The notes under the pieces are model-generated. The model searched no databases, was not told the DNA's origin, and saw nothing but the letters and a program-made list of their open reading frames with translations. Below, piece after piece: positions 22,339 through 40,928 of a stretch of DNA of 57,600 nt. Both the position numbers and the translations under genes were made by a program. Where the stretch lies: contig JABGPZ010000063.1 of NCBI GenBank assembly GCA_018644725.1, forward strand, positions 1 to 57,600. The letters are read 5' to 3'. The DNA is from Phycisphaerales bacterium (GTDB taxonomy: Bacteria; Planctomycetota; Phycisphaerae; SM23-33). Numbering within the stretch: the stretch's first letter is position 1; each line of letters starts with the position of its first letter.

Positions 22339-23394
22339 TTAAAACAGTTTGCAGTCGTCGCAGGGTTGGCGGTCGAAGCGCCGTTCTTTGGCAAGGGCGC
22401 GGATGCGCGGTAGCTGGGTGTGGCTGCGGAGGCGTTCGAGAATAATCGCGACCGATTGCGTGGAATATTTCGTATGCACGCAGCCGCTGGCCTGAAGACG
22501 CCAGTTGAACCGCTCGGCGAATCGCTCCATCATATCCGGGTGTTTGATGAGCAGGTCGGTGGTGACCTTGAACTCGGAATAGGCGACCTTGAGGACCTCG
22601 ATATGCTCCTCGGGCCAGTGGTGCGGCTCGCCGTCGAAGTCGGTCATGGGCTTGGTCTGGGCGAGGCGTTCGCGCGCGCCGCGGGCATAGTCGTCGGAAA
22701 GTTCGGTGCCGATGTAGTGGCGGTTGAGTTTTTTCGCAGCCACCAGCGTCGTGCCGCTGCCGGTAAATGGATCGAGCACGACGTCGCCGGGATTCGAGCT
22801 GATGCGGATGATTCGCGAGAGCAATCCCACGGGCATCTGGCAGGGGTGGAAGCCGCTCCGCTCGCCATTTTTCGCGGAGATGCGCGGGAACTCGTCCCAG
22901 ACATCATCCGGCAGGCGGCCCATGCGGCTGGCGCGTTGGTCGTTGTATTCCTTCTCGCGGTCCGAGAAAATGCGCACGGCTCTGTCGTTGAAGGTGAACT
23001 CTTTCGCGTCGGCGGTGAAGTAGAAAATGTGGGTGTGGCTGCGGGCGAACTTTTTCCGCGCGTGCTGGCCGAACGTGTAGTGCCAGATGATCCAGTTGCG
23101 CAACGTCAGCCCGAGGCGCTGGCCGAGGCGGCGAATTTCGGCGGCGAACTCGGCCGAGATCGCGATCCAAAAACTGCCCGTGGGTTTCAGCACCCGCTTG
23201 CACGCGCGCATCCAGTTCCGCGTCCAGCGCACATAGTCGCCATAGCCCATCTCGTCGTGATGAATGTCATAGCGAAAGCCGGTGTTGAACGGCGGGTCGG
23301 CGAAGACGAGGTCCACCGAATTCTCCGGCATCTGCGGGAGAAGGTCGAGGCAGTCGCCGCACGCGACCTGGTCGATGGAATGCGAAGGAGTCAT
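22339..23394 (-). CDS. DNA methyltransferase (N4/N6 type, beta-class order)
   Basis: This 351-residue S-adenosylmethionine-dependent enzyme methylates adenine N6 or cytosine N4. Motif IV DPPF (33-36) precedes motif I DPFTGSGTT (208-216), the beta-class order. The region between (about 110-190) would be the target recognition domain. A C-terminal extension of about 100 residues follows, ending in CDDCKLF. No restriction enzyme is adjacent, so it is an orphan, possibly regulatory like CcrM. Its ATG overlaps the stop of the upstream gene by one base (TAATG), so the two are translationally coupled and cotranscribed. Confidence 0.9.
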   Translation of the reverse strand: MTPSHSIDQVACGDCLDLLPQMPENSVDLVFADPPFNTGFRYDIHHDEMGYGDYVRWTRNWMRACKRVLKPTGSFWIAISAEFAAEIRRLGQRLGLTLRNWIIWHYTFGQHARKKFARSHTHIFYFTADAKEFTFNDRAVRIFSDREKEYNDQRASRMGRLPDDVWDEFPRISAKNGERSGFHPCQMPVGLLSRIIRISSNPGDVVLDPFTGSGTTLVAAKKLNRHYIGTELSDDYARGARERLAQTKPMTDFDGEPHHWPEEHIEVLKVAYSEFKVTTDLLIKHPDMMERFAERFNWRLQASGCVHTKYSTQSVAIILERLRSHTQLPRIRALAKERRFDRQPCDDCKLF

Positions 23395-25184: not shown

Positions 25185-26318
25185 ATGCCTACAGGATCAA
25201 CAAACATTTTTGAGACCACGGTACGACACTTCCTCGCGCCGGTGATGGAGTTTCTTGAGGACCCTCGAGTGACCGAGGTGATGATCAACTCCGCGAGTGA
25301 TATTTATATTGAACGCGAAGGCAAGGTCATCAAGACCGACGCGCAATTTGAGGATGAAGATTCTCTTCGCGCCGCGATTAACAACGTGTTGCAGTATACC
25401 GGAAAGCGCATTCAGGAAGACCATCCGCTCGTCGATGCGCGTCTTCCCGACGGCAGCCGCGTCCACGTCGTTCTTCCGCCGCTGTGTCGCAACGGCAACT
25501 GTATGTCGATTCGAAAATTCTCGAAAGTCTCCCTCGACGCCCAGTTCCTGTTGGACTGCGGCAGCTGGACTCCCGAGGTGATGGACTATATTCGAATGAT
25601 GGTCCTCTCAGAAAAAAACATGCTCGTCGCAGGCGGAACCTCCAGCGGGAAAACCTGTCTGCTGAACGTCATCAGCGGGTTTATCCCCGAGGCGTCCCGC
25701 ATCGTGACGATTGAAGACTCCGCCGAACTGGAACTCCAGCAAACCCACGTCGTGACCCTCGAAGGGCGCGGGGCTGACCGCTGGGGCCGGGGCGAAGTGA
25801 CCATCCGCGAGCTGTTCCGCTCATCGCTGCGCCTGCGTCCCGACCGCATCGTCATCGGCGAAGTGCGCGGTGGGGAAGGCCTGGACATGATTCAGGCGAT
25901 GACCTCTGGCCACGCGGGCTCAATGAGTACGCTTCACGCCAACACCGCGCTGGACACGCTCAGCCGCCTGGAAACCATGGCGCTGATGAGCAAGGTTGAT
26001 ATTCCGCTTCACGCATTGCGCAGTCAGGTCGCCTCGGCGATTGACCTCGTCGTGCTGATGAATCGTCTTCCCGACGGCAACCGTGTGATCACGGAAGTCG
26101 CCGAAGTTTTGCCGCTCGACGAACACGGCCACTATCGCATCCAGCCCATGTTCCGCTATGAACTCTCCGACGGGGACGATGGCAAGCGCGTCGGGCGATT
26201 GGTGTGGTCGGGCTTGAAATCGACGTTCCGCGACGAATCCCGCGTCCAGATCCACCGCGACAGCTGGGGCCTGGCCGAACACATTTTCACCGAACCCTCC
26301 GAGACGGAGGCCAAATGA
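25185..26318 (+). CDS. Tad pilus assembly ATPase, CpaF-type (copy 1)
   Basis: The 377-residue secretion ATPase is of the TadA/CpaF kind. It would hydrolyse ATP at the inner membrane to drive pilin assembly. Walker A GGTSSGKT is at residues 150-157. The Asp/Glu box is [12 protein letters not shown], Walker B IVIGEVRGGEG, and the conserved HAG..STLHAN follows. The N-terminal domain is short and there is no FHA domain, unlike the second copy at 36060. After the ATPase core comes a C-terminal tail of about 60 residues with charged strands. AGGA lies just before the ATG. Its stop overlaps the next start (ATGA). Confidence 0.92.
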   Translation: MPTGSTNIFETTVRHFLAPVMEFLEDPRVTEVMINSASDIYIEREGKVIKTDAQFEDEDSLRAAINNVLQYTGKRIQEDHPLVDARLPDGSRVHVVLPPLCRNGNCMSIRKFSKVSLDAQFLLDCGSWTPEVMDYIRMMVLSEKNMLVAGGTSSGKTCLLNVISGFIPEASRIVTIEDSAELELQQTHVVTLEGRGADRWGRGEVTIRELFRSSLRLRPDRIVIGEVRGGEGLDMIQAMTSGHAGSMSTLHANTALDTLSRLETMALMSKVDIPLHALRSQVASAIDLVVLMNRLPDGNRVITEVAEVLPLDEHGHYRIQPMFRYELSDGDDGKRVGRLVWSGLKSTFRDESRVQIHRDSWGLAEHIFTEPSETEAK

Positions 26319-26482
26319 ACCAACCGATCCATCGTGATGAGCAGGGTGCTTCCAGCATTGAATATATCCTGTTGCTCGCGTTTTTCGGGGTTCCCATGAT
26401 CAGCATCGCGACACTCATTCTGAACCTGATCTCAGGACTCTATCATCAGATCACGTGTCTACATTCTCTTCTGCTTCCCTGA
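26315..26482 (+). CDS. Flp-type pilin (small)
   Basis: The 55-residue prepilin starts at ATG 26315, overlapping the ATPase stop. The leader ends in a class III prepilin site, Gly11|Ala12, with Glu16-Tyr17 (E+5, Y+6), followed by one hydrophobic helix (ILLLAFFGVPMISIATLIL). This is the pattern of Flp/Tad major or minor pilins. GGAGG (26306-26310) supports the start. The sequence after the helix is short and ends in SLLLP. Confidence 0.85.
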   Translation: MNQPIHRDEQGASSIEYILLLAFFGVPMISIATLILNLISGLYHQITCLHSLLLP

Positions 26483-26527: not shown

Positions 26528-26716
26528 ATGAAATCATTGTTGAAAAAGTTGCACAAGGACGAGCAAGGCGCAGACCTTCTCGAATACATCCTGATTCTTG
26601 CGCTGATCGCTCTGCCGGTCGTTGCTCTGGTGCTGTTCTTCAAGAGCGAAATCACCACGTGGTTCATGAACCTCTTCAATGACTACAAAGATTCCGGCAG
26701 CGACGGTGTCGAATAA
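26528..26716 (+). CDS. Flp-type pilin, likely major subunit
   Basis: The 62-residue prepilin has a strong ribosome binding site (AAAGGAG seven bases before the ATG), which suggests high expression. The leader MKSLLKKLHKDEQG is cut before ADLLEY (Gly14|Ala15, Glu19 at +5). A hydrophobic helix (ILILALIALPVVALVLFF) and a short acidic, Ser-rich C-terminus follow. It differs from the pilin upstream in leader and tail, so the two may be major and minor subunits. The prepilin peptidase gene follows after 15 bases. Confidence 0.9.
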   Translation: MKSLLKKLHKDEQGADLLEYILILALIALPVVALVLFFKSEITTWFMNLFNDYKDSGSDGVE

Positions 26717-26731
26717 CCGGATCGCTAACTG

Positions 26732-27340
26732 ATGCACTCGTTGTTCGAGACATTGGGTCCCGACGTGTGGTTTTATGCGATCCTTGCGGTGGTGCTTTGC
26801 ATCGCTGCGTGGACGGATCTCCGCACGGAAAAGATCTACAACTGGTTGACCTATCCGGCGATTCTTGTGGGCCTGTTGGGCCACACGGTCGTCGGAGGGT
26901 CGCCCGTGTTCTCTGGCGTGTCTGACCATGCTGGTGTAATGACCCTTTCCGATAGCCTGATGGGCTTGGCGATTGGGTTTTTACCGTTGTTTCTGGCGTG
27001 GCAGGCGGGCGGGATCGGCGGCGGCGACGCCAAGCTGATGGCCGCCGTGGGGGCACTGACCGGTTGGCGATTTGCGGTGACTGCAATATTCTATGGACTT
27101 GGGGTTGCGGTGCTGTACTCGCTTTGGGTGTTGCTGCATCAAAAAATGCTGCGCGACACGCTTGGGCGGGTGTTCCGCTTTATGTGGTTGGCACTGCTGA
27201 AAAATAACCCCGGCGATCCCGCCACGGACCAGAGTCCCAAGGTTGCCTTTGGGACCTGCATGTGCGTGGGGGCAGGCGTGGTTCTGCTGGTGATCCTGAT
27301 TTGGGGTCACAATGCAGAAATGCTCTGGGTGGGCGTATAG
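26732..27340 (+). CDS. prepilin peptidase (CpaA/TadV type)
   Basis: The 202-residue membrane protease belongs to family A24. The catalytic aspartates are Asp29 (WTDLRTEKIYNW) and Asp99 (GIGGGDAKL). About five hydrophobic helices surround them. The short form without the N-methyltransferase domain is typical of Tad systems. It would cleave the Flp and TadE-like leaders encoded around it. The gene follows the major pilin closely. Confidence 0.92.
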   Translation: MHSLFETLGPDVWFYAILAVVLCIAAWTDLRTEKIYNWLTYPAILVGLLGHTVVGGSPVFSGVSDHAGVMTLSDSLMGLAIGFLPLFLAWQAGGIGGGDAKLMAAVGALTGWRFAVTAIFYGLGVAVLYSLWVLLHQKMLRDTLGRVFRFMWLALLKNNPGDPATDQSPKVAFGTCMCVGAGVVLLVILIWGHNAEMLWVGV

Positions 27341-27368
27341 CAACGCCCGAGAGCAAGATGGAGGATCA

Positions 27369-28322
27369 ATGACACAATCGGCACAATCCAAACGAGCCGC
27401 ACACCGAGGACTGGTTGTCTTCGGGATGGTGTTGTCCATTCTCCTGATGCTGTGCGCTGCGCTGGTTTATCTCGGCGCGGGCGGGCCGGCCTCGCGAGGC
27501 ATGCGCCTTGACGGGCTGTTGGGTCATCGCGGATTTGTCCGTACGGCCTGCGTGTGCGCTGGCTGCATGATCCTGCTGAGCTTGATGGGCGTGTGGGTGG
27601 TGCGATTGTCGCGCCGAATCCGCGCCCAGCGCGGCGTGATGGACTCTCAGGGCGGAACGGTTTTGCTGGAGTTTGTGTTCGTGATGTCGTTTGTCTTGCC
27701 GCTGGCATCGTTGATGGTCCAGGCCTCGCTCTTGATGGGGGGCTATCTCAGCGTGAACTACGCAAGCTTTTGCGCGGCGCGTGCGGCGATCGTCTATATC
27801 CCCGTGGATTACAGCGACGAACGGCGCAATCTTCTCAACAGTTATGACCAACCGGGTGATTCGTTCAAGTGCTATCAGGTCTGGAACGCGGCGGTCTGGG
27901 CGGTCATGCCCGTTGGCGATGGCCACGAAGACCAAGCCGAATCGGACCGCACCGGAACGCTCCAGAGCGGGCTGGAAGACTTTTACGGCACCTATGGCCG
28001 AAGCGCGCCCAACTGGGTCTCGAGCCGAATCGGGCGCAAGCTGAACTACGCCGAAGAAAACACCTCCATTCGGATTGAACCCTCTCGCTCGGAAACCGGA
28101 CAATATGGCGAGCACGAGGACATTACAGTCTATCTGACTCACGACATGCTTCTCAATGTGCCCTATGCCGCGAAGCTCATGGCGCTGTTGGACGACACCA
28201 GCGAGAGCATCGGCAATGGCCGCTACACGATTCGTGTCGTGATCCCCACAACCTTACCCAATGAGGGAGCTGACGATCGCATTGACGTCGAAGAGTTCCC
28301 CGATGATGATGAAAACACATAA
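27369..28322 (+). CDS. TadE-like protein with two extra membrane helices
   Basis: The 317-residue protein starts at ATG 27369 with GGAGGA just upstream. Two hydrophobic helices come first (about residues 15-40 and 60-80). A TadE-like prepilin motif follows near residue 95: QGGTVLLEFVF, with Gly before the helix and Glu at +5. The C-terminal 200 residues form the outer domain. TadE is normally a single-helix pseudopilin, so the N-terminal two-helix part is a fusion. Whether the peptidase cuts at an internal site is open. Confidence 0.75.
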   Translation: MTQSAQSKRAAHRGLVVFGMVLSILLMLCAALVYLGAGGPASRGMRLDGLLGHRGFVRTACVCAGCMILLSLMGVWVVRLSRRIRAQRGVMDSQGGTVLLEFVFVMSFVLPLASLMVQASLLMGGYLSVNYASFCAARAAIVYIPVDYSDERRNLLNSYDQPGDSFKCYQVWNAAVWAVMPVGDGHEDQAESDRTGTLQSGLEDFYGTYGRSAPNWVSSRIGRKLNYAEENTSIRIEPSRSETGQYGEHEDITVYLTHDMLLNVPYAAKLMALLDDTSESIGNGRYTIRVVIPTTLPNEGADDRIDVEEFPDDDENT

Positions 28323-28361
28323 CCCACTCCCTGATGGAGTGTGGATGGAAAGAGAGTCATA

Positions 28362-31130
28362 ATGACGGAATCAACAAGCAATGGCGTTCCTGGAACCCTG
28401 ACTCCGGGTCAAACGGTTGGGAAATATGAAATTCGCGACCTGCTGGGCGCGGGCGGACAGTCCGTGGTGTATCGTGCGTGGGATTCCGCTCTTGAGCGGG
28501 AAGTCGCGCTCAAGCAGATGACGCCGAATCTCATCGCGGACCCCAAGTACGCCGACCAGATCCGCAAGACCATTCGCACGATCGCGACGCTCGGAGCAAA
28601 GAACGAAGTGGTCGTGACGATCTATGACCTGATCGAAGAAGAGCGGGGCATGTTCTATGCGATGGAGTATGTCGACGGGCATTCGCTGGAGCTGGTGCTC
28701 CATGACAATCCCGGGCCGGTCGAGGTCAAGGGTGTGCTTTTGATTCTCTTCCGTCTCGCGGCGGCCTTGCACGAAATTCACGGCGCGGGGATTATCCACC
28801 GCGACCTCAAGCCCAGCAACATCATGCTCGCCGAGGGCCTGCGTCCGAAGATCATCGATTTCGGCGTGGCCTCGATTGGCGAATCGGACGTGTCGATGCC
28901 GCTGGTGACGACGAAATATCTCGCGCCGGAACTCTATGAAGGCGGCGCGTGCGACTCGCGTGCGGACATCTATTCCCTCGGCTTTATCATCTATGAGATG
29001 CTGTTGGGGCGTGAAAAATTCAACGAGATTTTCCAGGACATCGTCCGCGACAAACACGCCGAAGCGTTGCGTTGGATGAAGTGGCATGGCAATGCAAAGG
29101 TCTCTGCGCCGCCCGCGCACGAAGTGGTGCCGACGGTCCCGCTCGCGCTAAGCCACATTGTTCAGCGGATGATTGAGAAGGACCCCGAGCAGCGCTTTGC
29201 GAGCACCGAAGAGCTTGGCCGGACGATCAAGCGCAGCTTCTCGGGCAAGAAACGTGGTGCCGGTGCGGTGGCGCCTGCTCCCGCACAAGCCCAGCGCAGT
29301 GCGATGATGGCGCGCCTTGCTGCCGAGCGCGGCCTGGGTCGTCTGGAAGACGAAGTCGACTACACACCTGCTGGCGTTGTTCCCGCCGGTGCCCAGGCCA
29401 TGGGCCCCGCGACCGCGCCCATGCCCAAAGAGCCGATGGGCAAGAAGAAAAAAATCGCCCTTGCCGTGGCCGCCAGCCTGATGTTCGTCGTATTCGCGGG
29501 CTTGGTAATCTATAAGGTCCAGCAGGACAAGCAGCGCCAAATCAGCCTTTCCCAAACCGCCCGAGGTGTTTTGACCAAGGGCTGCACCGCCTTGGAGACT
29601 GGAAAGTATACGGATTCCATTAAGCTCTTTACGACACTCTTGGAGAATCACAAAGGCACCATTGAAGCCAAGCATGCCGAGTACCTCAAGCCACTGGCGG
29701 AGGGGTATGTCGCTCATTCCAAGGGGGATTACACCCGCGCTCGCCAACTCAAGAAAGATGTCATTATCATCACCGAGCGTCTCGTGCCAACATTCCGGAA
29801 TGAAAATGACCGTAAATTTGTTTCCAAGTACATTGAATCTGCAGAAGCACTTTCGAAGCTGGCGGTTACGTCCGACCTGGCAGGCAAGGCCTTCGCCCGC
29901 GCGACCCAGAGCATCAAAGCCGCCACGACGGTCAGCGAACTGGGCCAGTGCGAGCAGCAACTGAAAAATGATTACAGGGATAGTTACAGTGGTGGTGCGC
30001 TCCCCACCAAGGTGGAAGATGATCGGTATCTGGAGCTATTGGATCAAATCAAGCGAGAGAAATGCCTTATCGAGCTCAAGAAGAAGTTCGCCGCTGCGCA
30101 GAAATGGGTCGATCAGGAAGCTTGGCCGGATGCGGAGTTGAGCTATCAGGCAGTGGAAGATTTCCTTGAAAGTGACGCGGCGAAGAGTCTCTCCCAAAAA
30201 GAACGCGACGAGAAGCTTCGCGTGGTGAACCAGAATCGAAAAACCATCGCCGCACGCATGGGCAAGCAGGAGGTTCTTGACCGGATCGAAAAAGCCGAGA
30301 TCAATGGAAATCCCCTGGAGATCAAAGCGGCCTATCGCGCTGCGACCAAGAGCGACAAATTCTCCACAGCGGAGAAGGCCCGCTACACTAAGGGAATCGC
30401 TAAGATCGACCTCGACGCGCTGATCGCTAAGGCCAAGGCCGCACTTGAGGCTGGCGATGCCAGCGCGCGCGACCTGTGCAAGGAAGTCCTGTTGAAGGAT
30501 CCGCAAAACACCATGGCCCTTGAGGCACTGGCGGGCATGGACCAGGCCAAGACAACCGAAGCTCTTCGCGGCGCCGCCAAGCGGGCCGTTCAGGATGGCA
30601 ACTATGCCGATGGGCTTGCGCTCTTGGAAAAACTGTCCCAGTATCGTCAGGATGACGAAGTGCGCACCCTGATGACCCAGTGCCGCTATGAATTGACGAT
30701 GGAGGAGGCTCGCCGTGCCATCCGGACCGGAAACACCGCCGGTGCGCTTCGCCTTCTCGGCGAGGCCGAACAGATCGACCCGACCAAGGCCGCCTTGGTG
30801 GGATCGATGCGCAACACGATTCAGTCCGAGAAGAAATATGCAGAACTGGTGATAGAGATCAAGGCCTCCATGAAAGCGGAAACCACCAAGCGCACCCTGG
30901 AGTTGATCGTCCGTGCCCGCCAGATCAGTGATACGCAGGAACTCACGGACTTTGAGAACCAAGCGAATTACAACGACAAGCTGGCGGCTGGGAAAAAGGC
31001 TCTCAACGAGGGCAACCGGGACACCGCCCGCTGGTATTTCAAGCTGGCCCAGCGTTACATGGACACCAAAGAGATCCAGGGCCTCATTGATCAAGTCAAG
31101 CCCATCACCGAACCCGCAGCCACAGAATAG
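28362..31130 (+). CDS. transmembrane Ser/Thr protein kinase with TPR-like outer domain
   Basis: The 922-residue protein has a complete Hanks-type kinase domain (about residues 20-295): Gly loop LGAGGQSVVY, Lys51 (VALKQM), catalytic HRDLKPSN (146-153), DFG (166-168), a possible activation-loop Thr pair (183-184) and APE (188-190). A flexible Pro/Ala linker leads to one membrane helix (365-386, IALAVAASLMFVVFAGLVIY). The last 530 residues are helical, with TPR-like units (LTKGCTALETGKYTDSIKLF, ARRAIRTGNTAGALRLLGEA) and would lie outside the membrane. The kinase sits in the middle of the Tad operon, between two pilus genes. Likely targets are the Thr-binding FHA proteins encoded nearby or their ligands (inference). 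The start is ATG 28362; the ribosome binding site is weak (GGAAAGAGAG). Confidence 0.92.
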   Translation: MTESTSNGVPGTLTPGQTVGKYEIRDLLGAGGQSVVYRAWDSALEREVALKQMTPNLIADPKYADQIRKTIRTIATLGAKNEVVVTIYDLIEEERGMFYAMEYVDGHSLELVLHDNPGPVEVKGVLLILFRLAAALHEIHGAGIIHRDLKPSNIMLAEGLRPKIIDFGVASIGESDVSMPLVTTKYLAPELYEGGACDSRADIYSLGFIIYEMLLGREKFNEIFQDIVRDKHAEALRWMKWHGNAKVSAPPAHEVVPTVPLALSHIVQRMIEKDPEQRFASTEELGRTIKRSFSGKKRGAGAVAPAPAQAQRSAMMARLAAERGLGRLEDEVDYTPAGVVPAGAQAMGPATAPMPKEPMGKKKKIALAVAASLMFVVFAGLVIYKVQQDKQRQISLSQTARGVLTKGCTALETGKYTDSIKLFTTLLENHKGTIEAKHAEYLKPLAEGYVAHSKGDYTRARQLKKDVIIITERLVPTFRNENDRKFVSKYIESAEALSKLAVTSDLAGKAFARATQSIKAATTVSELGQCEQQLKNDYRDSYSGGALPTKVEDDRYLELLDQIKREKCLIELKKKFAAAQKWVDQEAWPDAELSYQAVEDFLESDAAKSLSQKERDEKLRVVNQNRKTIAARMGKQEVLDRIEKAEINGNPLEIKAAYRAATKSDKFSTAEKARYTKGIAKIDLDALIAKAKAALEAGDASARDLCKEVLLKDPQNTMALEALAGMDQAKTTEALRGAAKRAVQDGNYADGLALLEKLSQYRQDDEVRTLMTQCRYELTMEEARRAIRTGNTAGALRLLGEAEQIDPTKAALVGSMRNTIQSEKKYAELVIEIKASMKAETTKRTLELIVRARQISDTQELTDFENQANYNDKLAAGKKALNEGNRDTARWYFKLAQRYMDTKEIQGLIDQVKPITEPAATE

Positions 31131-31138
31131 GGGTCGCC

Positions 31139-33925
31139 ATGATCCGCCCGAACACATATCGACGAACCGCGCGCCGCTCGGGCGCGGTGCTGCTGATTCT
31201 CATCATCTGCATGTCCTTGCTGATGGGGTTGGTGTTCTTTGTGTTCAATATGGGCGACCAGGTCAATCGCCGCGTGGAAACCCAGTCCGCCGCCGACGCT
31301 GTGGCGATCAGTGGCAGTGGCTGGATGGCGCGCAGCATGAACATTGTCGCGATGAGCAACGTGACGATTCCGCGTCTGATTTCGCTGGCATGTGTGATGG
31401 ATACCTTGCCGGTTGCCGCCGAGATGACCATCGCGGAAATGACCAACCAGCGCAAACTTGTCGAGGCACTCGATCCGTATCAAGATCCCGGCACGCAAGG
31501 CTTTACGCTCTATGAAAAGGATAATTTCTATCGGTTGGGGATTGCCGAAATCTGGCGCGAACTCAACGAGGAGGCCGCGCTGACGACGCAACTGGAACTG
31601 CTGGAAGAGATCGACGCCACGTTCGATCAGATCAATGAAGTGTCCACCGAGGGCGTGTATGACGTTGCCCTCAGTACCGAGTGGGAAGGGCCCAACGGGC
31701 GCGGCTGGATTTGGCGTGCGATTGTCGCGCTGGACGAATTTTCCCGCGTGACGGCCGACATGGCGCCGTTGCTCAGCCAGGACGACGCCAGCCGCATCGG
31801 CGAGGCCAACCACATGAACGTCGCGTTCATCGTGCCGGTCTACCCGAGCTTCCCCGGAAAGATGGGCAAGTTTTCCGATTTCGCGTTTGTCCTCGAAAAT
31901 CGTCTGCGCTATGGCAGAGATCGCAATACCAGGACGCGGATTTGCGAAACGCGCGATTCGAATACCTACAACACGTTCATGAATTCGTCCGACACCGCTC
32001 AGTCCGCTCGCTATCATCGCGTTCGCGGCGGGGCGATTCCCGACTGGGCCGACGCGCATCGCCTTGGCCCGTTCGCGCGGCTGTATCGATGGCGCGATTA
32101 CTGGGACCAATACGAGTACACCGGCGGCTCGCGCCTGTTTGAAGAGCGCTGGGGCTATACGACCTATGGCCCGTTTGAACGGATGCTGCGCACCACGACC
32201 AACGGCTTCGGCAATGCGGGGTGGTGGTGGCACTGGAACCATCACTGGGGCGGCGGCGACGGGATTTTGGACCTCACGCGCTTCATGTTCCACCTTTGCT
32301 CGATTTCGCAGATCAAACTCGGCTATGTGTTGGGTGTGGACAAGACGGTCATGGCCCAGTACGCCGACCAGTGGATCACCGATTATGAAGAAGCCCGCCG
32401 CTATGTCGAGGGCGACAAGCACAACCGCTCTGGCACGAGTAACAACTCGGGCGTGATGGTGACGCGGTGGTATCGTGTTGCGGTGAAATCGACGTTCGAC
32501 CCGACCGTGATGACCGTGGAACTGGGCGAGTATGCCGGCGATGACGTCTATCCGGCGGTGACCTATCCGATGCACACCCTCGGTGGGTGGGACAACTGGA
32601 TGGACCCGGGCTCGTGGGACTCTGGCGCGGCCGAATTGCAGTTCGTCCCGCGCCGATGGTTCAGCTGGCAACTCAGTGGACACGGGCCCTATGACAATCC
32701 CAAGAAGCAACCGCTGCACCGGTGGATTTACGAACAGAGGGGGTGGAACCCCATCAGCGACGACCGTACCACGCCGGCGCAATTCGACATGAGCGGGACG
32801 ATCAATACTGACGGCGATCCTCCGCAAAATCAGAATATCAGCCTTCGCATGAAGCGCACCACCAGCCGCACGGTCAAGACGTTGCTGGAAGACCCTGCCG
32901 CAGACAACCCCGCGACGCCGGAACTCGAGCCGGTGGTCCAGCCCAAGATTATCACCGTGACGCTCCGCGCCGAAGAAGATGGCGAAGGGGAGACGGGCAT
33001 TGTAACCCTCACGCGCCAGGCCAACAACGAGGACTGGCTGATCGACGCCAACGGCCCCCAGGCCATGCGCCCGGACACGTCATACACTTCGCTCATCAAC
33101 GAAGAGGGCGTGACCTATTCACTGACCCTCACGGGCGCAAAGGTTTATAGCCCCGATTCAAGTGCGCCGTACCGCGTGCGATTTATTGTCAGCTTCCGCA
33201 AGGTGGGCGATACGATCCAAATCCGCGTCCGCCCCGAAAAGCGCCTCGAACCCGTCGACGGTGCAACCTCGCCATGGGGCAAGTGGGTCTCGCTCGACGG
33301 CAGCGGCAACGCCTGGTTCAAACGCCGCAAGGGCAAGACGACGCACGATGCCGAACTGGGCCTGCCGCAGATTCAGATTGGCGTGACCGAAGACGGAGAA
33401 CCGATCTACAAGCAGTACAGAACGTTCCACTATGAGTGGCGTATCTTCGGCGGGATTGAACTGCGCAACGAATTCCCGGTTTCGAATCTGATCGCCGGTG
33501 GCCAAGACAGCCTGCCCGCGCCGATCTTGATCGACTATGAAAACTATGGCGATTATGATCCGCAGGACCCCAACGGCGACGAAGGATTGCGCCGGAAAAA
33601 CTTCAGCTTCCTCGGCATCGCCCGCCGCAATGCCCAAGCGCCGGTATGGCGCCAGCAATTCCCCGAGTCCAACCCCTCGGGCTACATCACAGCCATCGCC
33701 CAGGCCGAGTTGTTCAACAACAAGAGCTGGGACCTCTGGACGCAGGATTGGCAGGTCCGCCTCGTTCCGGTGACCGACTATCCCGAATGGTGCGAGCGGT
33801 TGAGCGCGGGCAAGGCCGATGCCTACGAAGTCGAAACGGTAATCACGCCCGAACAGCTCGAGGCGGCCGAAGAATATCTCTACAGCATGAATCAAGCCCT
33901 GGTTGACGCCTTTTTGGCCCATTGA
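31139..33925 (+). CDS. TadG-like large pilus-associated protein
   Basis: The 928-residue protein starts eight bases after the kinase stop. A basic N-terminus (RRTARRSGA) precedes one hydrophobic helix (VLLILIICMSLLMGLVFFVF) of the TadE/TadG prepilin type, though without Glu at +5. Then comes NMGDQVNRRVETQSAADAVA, the hallmark start of TadG-like proteins. The large outer region is rich in Trp, Tyr and Asp and includes likely beta-sandwich segments (about residues 600-740). It may be the pilus tip or an adhesin. It is larger than most TadG proteins, which are around 400-600 residues. Confidence 0.82.
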   Translation: MIRPNTYRRTARRSGAVLLILIICMSLLMGLVFFVFNMGDQVNRRVETQSAADAVAISGSGWMARSMNIVAMSNVTIPRLISLACVMDTLPVAAEMTIAEMTNQRKLVEALDPYQDPGTQGFTLYEKDNFYRLGIAEIWRELNEEAALTTQLELLEEIDATFDQINEVSTEGVYDVALSTEWEGPNGRGWIWRAIVALDEFSRVTADMAPLLSQDDASRIGEANHMNVAFIVPVYPSFPGKMGKFSDFAFVLENRLRYGRDRNTRTRICETRDSNTYNTFMNSSDTAQSARYHRVRGGAIPDWADAHRLGPFARLYRWRDYWDQYEYTGGSRLFEERWGYTTYGPFERMLRTTTNGFGNAGWWWHWNHHWGGGDGILDLTRFMFHLCSISQIKLGYVLGVDKTVMAQYADQWITDYEEARRYVEGDKHNRSGTSNNSGVMVTRWYRVAVKSTFDPTVMTVELGEYAGDDVYPAVTYPMHTLGGWDNWMDPGSWDSGAAELQFVPRRWFSWQLSGHGPYDNPKKQPLHRWIYEQRGWNPISDDRTTPAQFDMSGTINTDGDPPQNQNISLRMKRTTSRTVKTLLEDPAADNPATPELEPVVQPKIITVTLRAEEDGEGETGIVTLTRQANNEDWLIDANGPQAMRPDTSYTSLINEEGVTYSLTLTGAKVYSPDSSAPYRVRFIVSFRKVGDTIQIRVRPEKRLEPVDGATSPWGKWVSLDGSGNAWFKRRKGKTTHDAELGLPQIQIGVTEDGEPIYKQYRTFHYEWRIFGGIELRNEFPVSNLIAGGQDSLPAPILIDYENYGDYDPQDPNGDEGLRRKNFSFLGIARRNAQAPVWRQQFPESNPSGYITAIAQAELFNNKSWDLWTQDWQVRLVPVTDYPEWCERLSAGKADAYEVETVITPEQLEAAEEYLYSMNQALVDAFLAH

Positions 33926-33936
33926 TGGGAGGCACC

Positions 33937-34686
33937 ATGAGAACAACCTATCGACATAATCGACGCGGTGTGGCCTTGCTGGAGTTTGTCTTCTGCTTGC
34001 CATTTTTCCTGCTGATTATCGCGGGGACGTTCATGTTCGGCACGATGATGCGCAACGAGCAGCGTCTGCGCGTGACCGACCGCTATGTGTCGTGGCGCGT
34101 GTCGCACAACAGCGACGCGGGCGTGGATGCCAGCAATCTAGGGGCTGTGAAGTGGGGCGAGCCCAATGAGGGGACCGAGCGTCAAAACTTCATCGACGAG
34201 TATCTGCGGGTCAACAAGGTGACGTTGACGGGGAAACTTCTCAACGAATCGTTCTACGAAAAGCGCGCGAATGAGCCGGCGGTCAAATGGACCCACTCCA
34301 GCCGCACCGGCCCGCGCGAACCCTACGAAGAACTCATTGCCGGCGCGCAAGAGGCCAGCGAGGATACCGGGCGCCTTGCCGAAGAGGCCATGGGCGGTTG
34401 GTCGTATGTGTCTGATGCGCGCGTCTCGGCGACGTTCCCGCGCGAAAACTCACTGGCCGAGACCGTCGAGCAGCACATCACCCGCGATCCCAATGCCGAA
34501 ACGGGCATGACCGACCATGCTCGCCGTCGACACATTCGCTCGAGCGTCCAATGGCGGCGCGGGCAGAATTCGTATCTCGAACCCATCCGGAAACACTTTC
34601 TCGCCGAGTTGGATGACGTCATCCAGGCGATGCAAAATGACCAGCTGCGGAAGAATCTCAGCGATTTGTACATGAATCGATGGTAG
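33937..34686 (+). CDS. TadE-like pseudopilin
   Basis: The 249-residue protein starts at ATG 33937, four bases after GGAGG; an in-frame TTG upstream overlaps that site. The motif RRGVALLEFVFCLPF is a prepilin site (Gly followed by helix, Glu at +5). One helix anchors a soluble, charged domain of about 210 residues. It is the standard single-helix TadE form, unlike the one at 27369. Its last codons overlap a possible start of the next gene. Confidence 0.82.
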   Translation: MRTTYRHNRRGVALLEFVFCLPFFLLIIAGTFMFGTMMRNEQRLRVTDRYVSWRVSHNSDAGVDASNLGAVKWGEPNEGTERQNFIDEYLRVNKVTLTGKLLNESFYEKRANEPAVKWTHSSRTGPREPYEELIAGAQEASEDTGRLAEEAMGGWSYVSDARVSATFPRENSLAETVEQHITRDPNAETGMTDHARRRHIRSSVQWRRGQNSYLEPIRKHFLAELDDVIQAMQNDQLRKNLSDLYMNRW

Positions 34687-35261: not shown

Positions 35262-36041
35262 ATGGCTGAGAAATCAAAAGGCGTTCAAAACCTCTGGCTG
35301 CTTGCCATTGCGATTGTGCTGGGCATGTTGGCGGTTGTGATTTACAACGTCCACATTTCTGCGATTCGCAACGAGAACAAGCAGAAACGGATTGAAGTGA
35401 TTAAGGTCACCAAGGCCCTGAAAATCGGCGCGAATCTCAAAGACAACATCATGGAGAGAGCGATCATCTATACCGATGACGAGGGTGCGGCGGACCATTA
35501 TGTCGCTCATGATCGCCGTCCTGCGCTTATCTCTGGAAAGGGCCAAACGGTCTACTTGCCCATCCAAAAGGGTGAGTTTCTCATGGAGCATCATATTACG
35601 TCTCGCCAATCTGGTGGGGCGGCGAGCGCGATCTCCCCGGATTTGCCGACGAATACGATTAACATCGACGATTCGCCGGGCCAATTGCTCGAGCCGGGCG
35701 GCTTTGTCAATATCAAAGGGCTGTTCCAGATCAAGGAAACCGGCCGGTATGAAACGGTTCGCATCCTGGAGAACATTCGCGTCGTCGGTGTGGGGGGCAA
35801 GCGCCTCGAAGCCAGCACGATGGCTGCGGCACGCAACGCCGGACGCGCCATGACCAATTTTCGGACCATCACCGTGGAGCTTCCGCCGGAGCTGTCTCTC
35901 CAACTGGATAACCTCAAGACGCACTGTATCGGAAACTTTACGGTCGAAGTGTTGGCCCAACCCAAAGAGAATGCCAAAAAGCCTTCGGTGAATCACAAGC
36001 TGAAATCGATGGCGCTCTCGGCCAAGCCTCCCTCACGTTAA
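35262..36041 (+). CDS. cpaB: CpaB/RcpC-like pilus assembly protein
   Basis: The 259-residue protein starts with TAGGAG seven bases upstream of the ATG. It has one N-terminal helix (LWLLAIAIVLGMLAVVIY). A SAF-like module is followed by a CpaB core with DSPGQLLEPGGFVNIKGLF and TITVELPPELSLQL, both typical of CpaB (similar to VTVEVSPEEA-type strings of the family). CpaB sits in the periplasm and links the inner-membrane machine to the secretin; no secretin gene is in this window. It is next to the second ATPase, as in many Tad loci. Confidence 0.82.
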   Translation: MAEKSKGVQNLWLLAIAIVLGMLAVVIYNVHISAIRNENKQKRIEVIKVTKALKIGANLKDNIMERAIIYTDDEGAADHYVAHDRRPALISGKGQTVYLPIQKGEFLMEHHITSRQSGGAASAISPDLPTNTINIDDSPGQLLEPGGFVNIKGLFQIKETGRYETVRILENIRVVGVGGKRLEASTMAAARNAGRAMTNFRTITVELPPELSLQLDNLKTHCIGNFTVEVLAQPKENAKKPSVNHKLKSMALSAKPPSR

Positions 36042-36059
36042 TTCCCACAGGAGATCGAA

Positions 36060-37937
36060 GTGGAAATCTGGATTTGCAATCAATACAACGACGAGCGGAT
36101 CACGCAGAAGGTTCCCGACGAGCGCGTCCTGATCGGGCGCGACGAGTCGTGCGATGTGACTCTGCGGTCGGGATTCGTCTCGCGACAGCACGCCAAAATC
36201 GTCTTCGAGCACGGTAGCTTTTTCATCGAACCCCTCGCAGTGAGCGGGCTGACGGTCGCCAACACCATGCTCTCGATGCACGAGCGGCACAAGTTGGAAT
36301 ACGGTGACGAAATTCGCATCGGTGAGTTCAGCCTCTATATGATGCAGCCGTCGCAGAAGCGGATCGAGGCCGTCGAGCAGGCGACCTCGCCGCGCAAACG
36401 CGTCGTCGCGCTCGAAGAAAAAATGCACGCCGAGCTGCTCGACAATCTCAACCTGCGCGTGACGGGCCAGGAAAGCGTCAGTGATTCCAAGCTCGTGTCG
36501 ATGATCAAGTCCAGCCTCGACGCGATCATTGAAGCACACCTTGGCGAGGTAGACCGCGAAATGCGCGAATATCTCATGGCCGAGTATCTCTGGCGGACAA
36601 TCATCACCGAGCTCAACCGCCGCGCAACGGGCAAGCTGATGTACAGTTATGCCTTTGAGGACACCGGGCATCTCGATCAGAAAAAAGAAGAAACGCTCAG
36701 CCGCATGGTCAGCGATGTCCTCGGCGCGTACCCGCTTCGCATGCGCCTCCACACGCTCAAAGAAGACGTCTCGATGATCGAGGACGACTGGGACAATCAG
36801 CTGCGGATTATGAAAACCCGCATCACTCCCGAGCTTCACGGATACATCGTCCGGCGGATGATCAGCAAGGAAATCGAAGATGTCGTTCTCGGCTATGGCC
36901 CGTTGCAGGACCTGCTGGAAATGCCGAACGTGAACGAAATTATGGTCGTCTCGCGCGACCGGATCTACATCGAAAAAGATGGCGTGCTGCAAAACACCGG
37001 CCGAAGCTTTTTCTCCGACAAGATCGTCGAAAGCATCATCGAGCGCATCATCACGCCCGTCGGCCGCCGGATTGACCGCTCGACGCCGCTGGTCGATGCG
37101 CGCCTGCCAGACGGCAGCCGTGTCAACGCGATTATTCACCCGCTGGCAGTCTCCGGGCCGACGCTGACGATTCGAAAATTTGCGCGCATTCCCTTCACCA
37201 TTGACGACCTCGTTGAACGCGGAACTCTTACGCGCCAATCGGCCAACTTCCTGCGCGCGTGCAGCCTCGGGCGGAAAAACCTGCTGATCTCCGGTGGTAC
37301 GGGCAGCGGGAAAACCACGACGCTGAATGTGTTGAGCAACTTTATTCCCGAAGAAGAACGTATCGTCACGATCGAAGACTCGGCTGAACTTCAGCTCCAT
37401 CAAGAACACCAGGTGCGCCTGGAAACGCGCCCGGCGAACATCGAAGGCAAAGGGGCGTACACGATCCGCGACCTGGTGAAAAACGCACTGCGTATGCGGC
37501 CCGACCGCGTGATTGTCGGCGAATGTCGCGGCCCGGAAGCACTGGACATGCTCCAGGCGATGAACACCGGCCATGACGGTTCGCTCAGCACGATTCACGC
37601 CAACAATCCCGACGACACGATGCTTCGCCTTGAGACGATGGTGCTCATGGCGGTGGACATGCCCGTCAAGGCGATTCGCGAACAGATTTCCGCCGCCATC
37701 GACGTCGTAGTTCAAATTGCGCGTCTTTCGACAGGACGCCGCTGCATCACCCACATCAGCGAAGTCATCGGGATCGACCCCGACACGGGCAAAGTGCTCA
37801 CTGAAGACATTTATCGCCTCAAGAAGGTCCGCGGCGAATTTGATGCCGAAGGAGATCTCATTCATACCGGCTACATTCCGGAGTTTTCCGAAGAGCTTAT
37901 CCATAAGAAGTTTATGGGAGTGGAGGTGTTCACTTGA
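36060..37937 (+). CDS. cpaF: FHA domain fused to CpaF-type Tad ATPase (copy 2)
   Basis: The 625-residue protein starts with GTG 36060, seven bases after AGGAG. Residues 1-95 are an FHA domain with the phosphothreonine-binding residues in place: GRDES (Arg27), SRQHAKI (Ser41, Arg42, His44) and a following Asn. A linker and the CpaF N-terminal helical domain come next (about 120-330). The ATPase core has Walker A GGTGSGKT (412-419), [19 protein letters not shown], Walker [15 protein letters not shown] (about 485-495) and STIHANNP. The fusion places a phosphopeptide reader on the pilus motor itself. It overlaps the TadB start by four bases. Confidence 0.93.
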
Positions 37938-38812
37938 TCGCATCCACATCCATTTTAGTAGCGATGGCCCGTCAGCAGGTTATCGGCAGCGGGTCGATTT
38001 TCTTTCTGATTCTGGCGGCGGTGTTGGTGGGGGCTCGACCGTTGCGCGAATTGATTCGCGTCAAAGAGGTCGAGTGGGATTTCACCCTTCGCTATCGCTT
38101 ACTGCAGAAAAACACAGGCCGCAGCGTCACGGTGATGACCGGGCTTTTGATGGTCTTCTTTGGGGGCATTGCGTTGGCACTGACCCGCGGAAGCCTCTTG
38201 GCGATGTTCATCGGCGCGTCGGTGGCGGTGTTCATTCCGAACTGGTATGTCAATCGCAAATCGATCAAGCGCCGCGAAGAACTCGAATCGCAACTCGTCC
38301 AGGGCGTTCAGATGCTCGCGTCGAGTGTGCGTGCGGGGCTGAATCTCGTCCAGGCGATGCGGACGGTTTCGATTGACGCGCCCGCGCCGCTGCGCGAAGA
38401 ATTTTCCCACATGGTCAGCGAGTACGAATATGGCATGCCGCTTCCCCAGGCGATGGATAATGCGGCCGAGCGGATCGGATCGAGCGATTTCCGTTTGCTG
38501 TTCACCGCGCTCCAGACCCACCGCGAACGTGGCGGGGACCTTGGGGAGACCCTCGACCGGATTGCCGCGAGTATTCGCGAGATCCAGCGCCTTGAAGCGC
38601 GGATCGATTCGCTGACTGCCCAAGGCCGCGCGATGGCGCGTTGGCTGAGCGCGATGCCGGCCGTGGTCATGGGCATCCTCTATCTGATCGACGCAGAAGG
38701 GACCGCGAGGCTCTTTTCTGACGCGATGGGCAACGTGATCCTTCTGTTCGTGGTGATCCTGAATGTCATCGGCTACATTTGGATTCGCAAGATTATGACA
38801 ATTGATATCTAG
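37934..38812 (+). CDS. tadB: Tad platform protein TadB
   Basis: The 292-residue inner-membrane protein has a T2SSF domain. Recognisable parts are QGVQMLASSVRAGLNLVQAM, EEFSHMVSEYEYGMPL, ALQTHRERGGDLGETLDRI and SLTAQGRAMARWLSAMP, all TadB-like. The start is TTG 37934, supported by GGAGG (37922-37926) seven bases upstream; it overlaps the cpaF stop (TTGA). A later in-frame ATG (37964) has no site. Two helices near the N-terminus and two near the C-terminus flank the cytoplasmic domain. Confidence 0.9.
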   Translation: MIASTSILVAMARQQVIGSGSIFFLILAAVLVGARPLRELIRVKEVEWDFTLRYRLLQKNTGRSVTVMTGLLMVFFGGIALALTRGSLLAMFIGASVAVFIPNWYVNRKSIKRREELESQLVQGVQMLASSVRAGLNLVQAMRTVSIDAPAPLREEFSHMVSEYEYGMPLPQAMDNAAERIGSSDFRLLFTALQTHRERGGDLGETLDRIAASIREIQRLEARIDSLTAQGRAMARWLSAMPAVVMGILYLIDAEGTARLFSDAMGNVILLFVVILNVIGYIWIRKIMTIDI

Positions 38813-38838: not shown

Positions 38839-39801
38839 ATGACAGCACTGCTGAACATCCTGGCTGTGACAAACTATGCCGACCCGTGGGTGACGTGGGT
38901 CTCCAGTGGAATGATTTTCACGGTGGTCTTTCTCGTGATTCTCGCCGTCTTTGGCGAACGTGGCGAGGTCCACCTTTCTCCTCAGCGCCAGGCCGCGATT
39001 TTCGCCGGCCACGCCGACCGCAAGACCTTGTTCGAGAATTCCATCGTCGCCCCAATTCTCTGGCTGTGTTTGACGATTGCGACTTCGCTGAACATGCCGC
39101 GCGCCAAAGAATCGTTGCGGAAGACATTGGTATCGGCAGGGAGCCCGAACTTCTTCACGCCCGAAGAATATATCGCGCTGTCGCTGTTCCACGGATTTAC
39201 GGCTGGGGTGCTTTTGAACCTGTTTGCGGCTGTGATGACGGGCTCGTTCAGCATGTTGATCTTCCTGATCGGCGTGGTGATCGGCACGGGGATATCGGTC
39301 TATTCGATTGGCGAACAGGCCACCGTCCGCCTGCGGAGCATCACGCGCCAGATGCCTTATTCGCTCGACCTGATTTCGCTCGCGATGGGCTCGGGCGCGA
39401 CGTTCACCGAAGCCATTGGTGCCGTCGTGCGCGATGCGTCGATGGACACCGACCAGGCCGCCGCGCTGAATACCGAATTCCGTGCGCTGATGTCGGAAAT
39501 GGACCTCGGGCACACCCGCCGCGAAGCGCTCGAAAACCTTGCCCGCCGCGTTCCGCTTTCCTCGGTCCAGGCGATTGTCGCCTCGATCATGCAGGCCGAA
39601 GAGCTGGGCACGCCGCTGGCGGATGTCCTCCACGACCAGGCCACGACGTTGCGTCTGGAACGGTCGGTCCGCGCGGAAAACCTTGCGGCCTCGGCCTCGA
39701 TGAAAATTCTGATCCCGTGTCTTCTTCTGGCGGTGGCTGTGATCCTCACCGTCTTTGGCCCGTCGATCATCAGCATTGCACGAAATGGATTGTTTGGATA
39801 G
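38839..39801 (+). CDS. tadC: Tad platform protein TadC
   Basis: The 320-residue protein is the second T2SSF platform protein. Key segments are RQMPYSLDLISLAMGSGATF, GAVVRDAS, EFRALMSEMDLGHTRREAL and SIMQAEELGTPLADVL, as in TadC. Four helices are predicted: one at the N-terminus, two in the middle and one at the end (ILIPCLLLAVAVILTVF). GGAGAG lies before the ATG. It would form the inner-membrane platform with TadB. Confidence 0.9.
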   Translation: MTALLNILAVTNYADPWVTWVSSGMIFTVVFLVILAVFGERGEVHLSPQRQAAIFAGHADRKTLFENSIVAPILWLCLTIATSLNMPRAKESLRKTLVSAGSPNFFTPEEYIALSLFHGFTAGVLLNLFAAVMTGSFSMLIFLIGVVIGTGISVYSIGEQATVRLRSITRQMPYSLDLISLAMGSGATFTEAIGAVVRDASMDTDQAAALNTEFRALMSEMDLGHTRREALENLARRVPLSSVQAIVASIMQAEELGTPLADVLHDQATTLRLERSVRAENLAASASMKILIPCLLLAVAVILTVFGPSIISIARNGLFG

Positions 39802-39815
39802 GAGATTGATCCGCT

Positions 39816-40928
39816 ATGACTTCAGCACGCCCCGAACTAATTTTTGTCCAAGGTCCTCAGGAAAACCATCGCGTTGTCCTGATGAACAATATTTGCATCG
39901 CCGGGCGAAGCCCCCAGGTCGATGTGGTGATCCGCGAAGAGTTTGTCTCGCGCAATCAGCTTCAGTTTATCTTTACGCATGATGGCTGGATTGTTGAGAA
40001 CCTTGTCAAGGCCCGCAAGATGGAGATCAACGACAAGGTCTACAAGGCCGGCAAGAAGATTCTTCTCGACAGTGGCGATGTGATCAAGATCGGGATGGAG
40101 ACCAAGCTTCTGTTTGTCTCTCCTGAGGACGACCCGGCCGAGGTCCTGATGGCCTATCGCGGCGCGCACCCCACGGCCGTTCCCGTTGAGGCTCCGGCCG
40201 ATGCTCCCGCCCCCACGCCCGTCACAAAACCCGCCAAGCCCTACATCGATCTCGACGCACAGCCGACCGAGTTCATCGAAATTCCCACCGAGCAAACCTC
40301 CGAGACCAAGCCCGAGAAAGAGCTGACCGAGCACGATCAGGCGGCTGCGGCGGCCTCGCGCAAGAAAAAGCTCTACATGATTCTCGGTGGGGCGTGGGTA
40401 GGGATCATTCTCGTCATCGCACTGGCCCTTTCGACGGTGACCAAAAACGGCCCCGCCAAAACTGGGGGACTGAGCGAATGGCCGGCGGAGAAAATTCGCG
40501 CCGCATTCTCCAGCAAGCTGGAAACCTCCCACAAACCCGGTCAGGATCAGATCGAAATTGAGCGTGCAGATTCCCTCTTTGCCATTCGTGGATCCCAGCG
40601 CCAGAACTATTACAAGACCCTGTGTCACTATCGCGCGGCGATGGCCCACCGTGTCGGCCAGGCCGTCCCGCTTCCCTCGCGCCAGGAGCAGCGCTATCGC
40701 ACCGTCCTTCAGGAGCTCACCGACATCATCACCGAGGAATACAAGACGATGATCCAGCGGGAGCGCAACAAGTCCTGGCTGGATGCCAAGTACTCCGCGA
40801 ATCTGATTCTGATGGACTACATCCCGCGTAAGACGGTTTTGGAATTCCGCGATGAGGAGGTCGATAAATTCATCTCGAACATATTCAAACACCTGAATCG
40901 CATTTCAACGAAAATCGGTCCAAAGTAA
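39816..40928 (+). CDS. membrane protein with N-terminal FHA domain
   Basis: The 370-residue protein has an FHA-like domain at residues 1-105 (IAGRSPQVDVVIREEFVSRN). In the binding loop the usual His of SxxH is Gln (Ser45-Arg46-Asn47-Gln48), so binding may be altered. A Pro/Ala/Thr/Glu linker (about 110-180) precedes one membrane helix (about 187-207, ILGGAWVGIILVIALAL). The outer part (about 160 residues) is helical and charged (RNKSWLDAKYSANLILMDY). It is the last gene of the Tad run and ends near the csrA terminator. It could be a membrane partner of the kinase. Confidence 0.85.
   Translation: MTSARPELIFVQGPQENHRVVLMNNICIAGRSPQVDVVIREEFVSRNQLQFIFTHDGWIVENLVKARKMEINDKVYKAGKKILLDSGDVIKIGMETKLLFVSPEDDPAEVLMAYRGAHPTAVPVEAPADAPAPTPVTKPAKPYIDLDAQPTEFIEIPTEQTSETKPEKELTEHDQAAAAASRKKKLYMILGGAWVGIILVIALALSTVTKNGPAKTGGLSEWPAEKIRAAFSSKLETSHKPGQDQIEIERADSLFAIRGSQRQNYYKTLCHYRAAMAHRVGQAVPLPSRQEQRYRTVLQELTDIITEEYKTMIQRERNKSWLDAKYSANLILMDYIPRKTVLEFRDEEVDKFISNIFKHLNRISTKIGPK

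Follow-up and report, generated by a model that had tools for sequence, protein, structure and literature searches.

An N-terminal FHA domain on a Tad pilus motor ATPase of a Phycisphaerales bacterium, and its candidate partner kinase

Does a pilus motor that carries its own phosphopeptide-reading domain also have a kinase to respond to? This question is raised by a Tad locus in a 57,600-nucleotide stretch of a Phycisphaerales genome, hereafter the window. According to the original prediction, an FHA domain is fused there to a CpaF-type ATPase and might allow a kinase to switch or recruit one of two motors. The fusion is confirmed: Pfam places both FHA (PF00498, residues 23-88, 52.5 bits against a cut-off of 20.7) and T2SSE (PF00437, residues 280-555, 211 bits) in a single open frame of 625 residues, which starts with GTG and has AGGAG upstream (Table 1). 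A long antisense frame (36033-37949, minus strand) overlaps it and is likewise open. The closest ATPase in the PDB is the pilus assembly ATPase CpaF (8rkd, residues 270-593, E 1.5e-103). As for the FHA part, an AlphaFold2 model of residues 1-150 has a pLDDT of about 85-93 across it, and its best PDB matches include the FHA domains of GarA, OdhI, EmbR and FhaA. Three helices (111-130, 141-163 and 166-190) separate the FHA domain from the NTD in the full-length model, whose ATPase part is poor and whose core is too weak for domain packing to be read. With an FHA domain at its N-terminus, a linker and helical bundle, and a CpaF-type NTD and core, this Tad pilus motor ATPase is by its sequence a class III CpaF. 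We refer to it as FHA-CpaF.

Such fusions are already known. Class III CpaF proteins of FHA-IDR-3HB-NTD-CAD architecture, as in Achromobacter, have the same linker and helical bundle between the FHA domain and the ATPase (PMC12019362). KilF, from the Tad-like Kil system of Myxococcus xanthus for which a signalling cascade was suggested, is also an ATPase with an N-terminal FHA domain, and more FHA proteins are found in its locus (PMC8460266). Unlike the protein described here, class III members are mostly betaproteobacterial in the sections of PMC12019362 considered, which describe no kinase or docking site. The Kil system has one ATPase, compared with two in the window, and the main text of PMC8460266 mentions no kinase.

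Table 1. Features of the Tad operon in the window (positions in the 57,600-nucleotide stretch)
Feature	Position	Strand	Remark
Second CpaF-type ATPase, without FHA or three-helix bundle	25185..26318	+	T2SSE only; Walker and Arg-finger motifs intact
Small Flp-type pilin	26528..26716	+	Pfam Flp1_like
Prepilin peptidase	26732..27340	+	Peptidase_A24
Membrane protein, three TM-like segments	27312..28322	+	No Pfam match; place kept in related loci
Transmembrane Ser/Thr kinase	28341..31130	+	Kinase domain 29-290, one TM-like segment at about 372, C-terminal TPR-like region
Candidate FHA docking motif T358-A-P-M-P362	29412..29426	+	Kinase juxtamembrane linker
Kinase TM-like segment	29454..29510	+	
TadG-like	31139..33925	+	Pfam Tad
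TadE-like	33922..34686	+	
Small protein, weak TM-like segment	34680..35252	+	No Pfam match; recognisable only in some relatives
CpaB/RcpC-like	35262..36041	+	
FHA-CpaF, Tad pilus motor ATPase	36060..37937	+	FHA (1-98), linker, helical bundle, NTD, ATPase core
FHA domain of FHA-CpaF	36060..36353	+	Residues 1-98; Pfam 23-88 = 36126-36323
Pocket codons of FHA-CpaF	Arg27 36138-36140; Ser41 36180-36182	+	
Ser62 codon	36243..36245	+	AGC (Asn would be AAC); Asn in 28/29 family members
T2SSE/CpaF ATPase core of FHA-CpaF	36897..37724	+	Pfam match
TadB platform protein	37934..38812	+	T2SSF
TadC platform protein	38839..39801	+	T2SSF
FHA2	39816..40928	+	N-terminal FHA, linker, one TM-like segment (residue 188), further domain

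The genes around the motor make up a Tad pilus set, with prepilin peptidase, Flp pilin, TadE/G, CpaB, motor and two T2SSF proteins together at the locus. The operon runs from the second ATPase through the Flp pilin, prepilin peptidase, membrane protein, Ser/Thr kinase, TadG-like, TadE-like, small and CpaB-like proteins to FHA-CpaF, TadB, TadC and a further FHA protein, FHA2. Secretin matches number three elsewhere in the genome and none inside the operon, which holds two of the three FHA matches of that genome and one of its three near-full-length kinase matches. As far as each of them reaches, 28 stretches of the same family keep this gene order, except L054. The kinase is present in 22 of them and FHA2 in 21. 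Five of the six stretches missing the kinase are cut before reaching its gene, and the sixth is L054 (G014:C161), a split locus with the kinase and second ATPase on contig C252 and no Tad gene found within 8.9 kb before CpaB. Two other frames are of note in the window: a second small frame (26204-26482) with a pilin-like EQGASSIEY stretch and a hydrophobic tail, without a Pfam match, and an N6/N4 DNA methyltransferase gene (22339-23394) upstream of the operon on the opposite strand.

The CpaF copy at 25185 has no FHA domain, as the original prediction had it. This second ATPase opens the operon, a position kept in related loci, shares about 45% identity with the core of FHA-CpaF and starts about where the NTD of the latter begins. 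Its Walker, Asp-box and Arg-finger motifs are kept in 18/18 true copies, counted after setting aside 11 of the 29 rows returned by the query, which were FHA-CpaF itself. The published minimum CpaF consists of bundle, NTD and ATPase, and Tad pili are described as driven by a single ATPase (PMC12019362). As the second ATPase lacks an FHA domain, no more than one motor of the pair can be read through such a domain. To that extent the predicted asymmetry between the motors holds.

The original prediction depended on the FHA part being conserved together with the kinase, and this is what we found across the class. Among 198 genomes, 45 have both FHA-CpaF and the operon kinase, 2 have FHA-CpaF only, 2 the kinase only and 149 neither, so that each of the two proteins is present in 47 genomes. 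Presence was called at 124 bits or more for FHA-CpaF and 400 bits or more for the kinase, thresholds chosen after the score gaps were seen. The Fisher p value of about 1e-39 carries no correction for ancestry, and genome and locus counts are not independent because the sequences share ancestry. As for the discordant genomes, the contig of G016 begins inside the kinase gene (L074), G055 has its FHA-CpaF on a 5.3 kb contig, FHA-CpaF is cut by the contig end in G024, and G034 is 69% complete. G021, 91% complete, has neither protein.

The operon kinase keeps its HRD and DFG catalytic motifs and is predicted to span the membrane once, with its C-terminal part on the far side. Although the linker ahead of the membrane segment can hardly be aligned, an alignment of 19 of these kinases has exactly two columns without variation between R285 and A598, namely T358 and P362. 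The final 35 residues of the linker contain T..[ILVM][PT] in 39/39 operon kinases and the narrower TA.[ILVM]P in 35/39, compared with 4.7% and 0.6% of shuffled linkers, respectively. Neither form is found in any of 23 other kinases bearing a TM-like segment (0/23), of which three near genomes supplied 5 and the next-best matches of the class the other 18; two further control kinases with no TM segment were left out. FHA domains prefer pT-x-x-[I/L/V]. We regard T-x-x-[ILVM]-[PT] before the kinase membrane helix as a candidate phosphothreonine site that an FHA domain could bind. Alternatively, the motif might be structural, serving membrane positioning or kinase dimerisation. Its place 13-29 residues ahead of the TM segment, usually followed by Lys/Arg, is consistent with such a role, but its Thr never varies among the operon kinases and the other membrane kinases do without the motif, which makes a purely structural function quite improbable.

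Beyond this arrangement the association loosens. In eight FHA-CpaF loci from other groups, the kinase is a different one and lacks the motif. In L180, L181, L188, L189, L196, L227 and L228, TadC and an FHA gene are followed by a kinase without T-x-x-[ILV]-P, except that L189 showed no FHA gene; L180, L181, L227 and L228 belong to the class of the window. A clear kinase is missing nearby in 11 FHA-CpaF loci in all, including L192, whose sole match is partial and at the stretch edge. Five of these are further loci of the phylum (L190-L194). The other six (L213-L218) are Tad loci with additional FHA proteins and no kinase within 20 kb, and in four of them Lys replaces the key Arg. These six came from 20 control loci picked as FHA-less CpaF by match start and were moved out once they turned out to have FHA; among the truly FHA-less loci, 0/14 have a kinase or any further FHA match within 20 kb. 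Outside Planctomycetota, a plasmid search for FHA-CpaF returned at least 5000 records, and most of the matches listed begin past the FHA part.

How well is the motor equipped to read such a site? The original prediction called its FHA domain intact. Arg27, Ser41, Arg42 and His44 are indeed present in the window, but where the pThr-binding signature (GR, SxxH and an Asn in the beta6-beta7 loop) has its Asn, position 62 is Ser. Across the 29 aligned family sequences, Arg27, Ser41 and Arg42 are found in 29/29, His44 in 27/29 and Asn62 in 28/29, with a mean identity of 73% across the domain, and the family consensus SLGLNGT resembles SLNGT of GarA. Conserved across the family in this way, the fusion is no assembly accident. 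Compared by eye, the +3 residue of the kinase motif and FHA residue 63 showed no co-variation. We also considered an intramolecular phosphosite at the Ser/Thr110-Pro111 that follows the FHA domain, but rejected it: some members have Ser at this position, and L170 and L201 have Asp-Pro. This conserved pair appears better read as a helix N-cap.

The pocket is broken in the f16/f19 sister group of two families (L182-L187, L199, L200), where the motor FHA domain keeps Arg27 and has lost Ser41 in 8/8 loci (7 Ala, 1 Asn) and Asn62 in 8/8 (5 Ser, 3 Ala). The kinase and its motif are kept in all 7 loci whose stretch covers the kinase. Strict co-variation of kinase motif and motor pocket, which we had entertained, thus fails in this group. 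Its FHA2 has a canonical GR..SR.H..NG pocket in 5/5 loci where it was found; it was not found in the stretches of L182 and L184, and L187, cut by its contig, lies outside the comparison. It is conceivable that phosphorylated Thr358 is read by FHA2, the motor FHA domain binding something else or being vestigial, as the f16/f19 loci would suggest. Yet this is unlikely, because in the f12/f3 loci L170, L172, L173, L175 and L201 the FHA pocket of the motor is intact and no FHA2 was found in stretches with enough downstream sequence, and because in the family of the window the motor pocket is better conserved than that of FHA2. By pocket sequence, the fit reader of the kinase phosphothreonine would be the motor FHA domain in most lineages of the class and FHA2 in f16/f19. 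The motor FHA domain, kept in f16/f19 after its pocket was lost, might also be an assembly module that works independently of phosphate, in the manner of the FHA-like cytoplasmic domain found in T3SS inner-membrane proteins. A weak Yop-YscD_cpl match to FHA-CpaF (32.5 bits, under the cut-off of 33.2) points the same way, whereas the invariance of Arg27, Ser41 and Arg42 in the window's family, within a domain of 73% mean identity, renders such a module very unlikely.

Phosphothreonine reading by FHA domains has precedents in other machineries. One is the threonine phosphorylation pathway of T6SS (PpkA-Fha), where pThr14 of TssL is read by Fha and secretion is lost in an FHA R30A/S46A double mutant (PMC3953482). 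As in that pathway, a Ser/Thr kinase and an FHA protein are encoded together and serve one secretion machine; in contrast, the T6SS FHA domain is on a separate protein, while here it is on the motor and the proposed docking site is the kinase itself. The Tad operon may work like the T6SS pathway without being a member of it, as the scanned operon genes are Tad and not T6SS core genes. The precedent also suggests that the motor FHA domain might read another phosphothreonine of the operon, on a platform protein, the FHA2 linker or the kinase activation loop. The same kinase and pocket evidence would fit such a partner, and Thr190 in the activation loop is nearly invariant, but the FHA2 linker showed no other conserved T-x-x-[ILV] site; we hold it to be as unlikely as reading by FHA2. 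A juxtamembrane target is found in mycobacteria, where FhaA binds the phosphorylated juxtamembrane region of PknB, as told in PMC12077195. The likeness to PknB/FhaA and GarA extends to structure, the FHA domains of GarA, OdhI, FhaA and EmbR being among the nearest solved ones. Neither mycobacterial case involves a pilus motor, and PknB has PASTA repeats where the operon kinase has a TPR-like C-terminal region.

The simplest account, we infer, is that a receptor kinase displays a phosphothreonine close to the inner face of the membrane, where one or both operon FHA proteins read it. We tentatively favour, at slightly less than even confidence, a class III CpaF motor that works with the membrane kinase of its own operon through phosphorylated Thr358, read by the motor's FHA domain, by that of FHA2 or by both. 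The TPR region of the kinase, beyond the membrane, would sense the cell surface or periplasm; the kinase would autophosphorylate, including on Thr358, and this residue would be bound by the motor's own FHA domain, by that of the membrane protein FHA2 or by both. Such binding would bring the hexameric motor to the membrane platform, or hold it there, and pilus assembly would therefore depend on kinase state. Having no FHA domain, the second ATPase would escape such holding. It is tempting to go further and imagine a two-motor machine in which the kinase phosphothreonine (T-A-x-[I/L]-P) holds the FHA motor and leaves the FHA-less one free, giving a kinase-controlled choice, with the reader moved to FHA2 in f16/f19; we think this extension rather unlikely. 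The predicted action of the kinase on the motor through FHA is supported in part. Co-occurrence, the family-invariant residues and the kinase motif speak for it. The loss of Ser41 alongside a retained kinase in f16/f19, phylum loci that can lack a nearby kinase and the plausibility of FHA2 as reader speak against a simple form of it.

While the fusion itself is in print as class III CpaF (PMC12019362) and KilF (PMC8460266), its conserved partnership with a kinase appears to be new: we found no description of an FHA-CpaF or Tad pilus paired with a kinase in the literature searched, most subscription journals lying outside the search. In the published sources considered, class III CpaF motors stand without a named kinase or ligand. 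A motor with a built-in phosphothreonine-reading domain, adjacent to a kinase with a near-invariant candidate docking site, makes it probable that the motor is recruited or switched by a sensor kinase. Together, the kinase, the candidate docking residue and naturally intact and broken pockets make phosphorylation control of a type IV-family motor directly testable.
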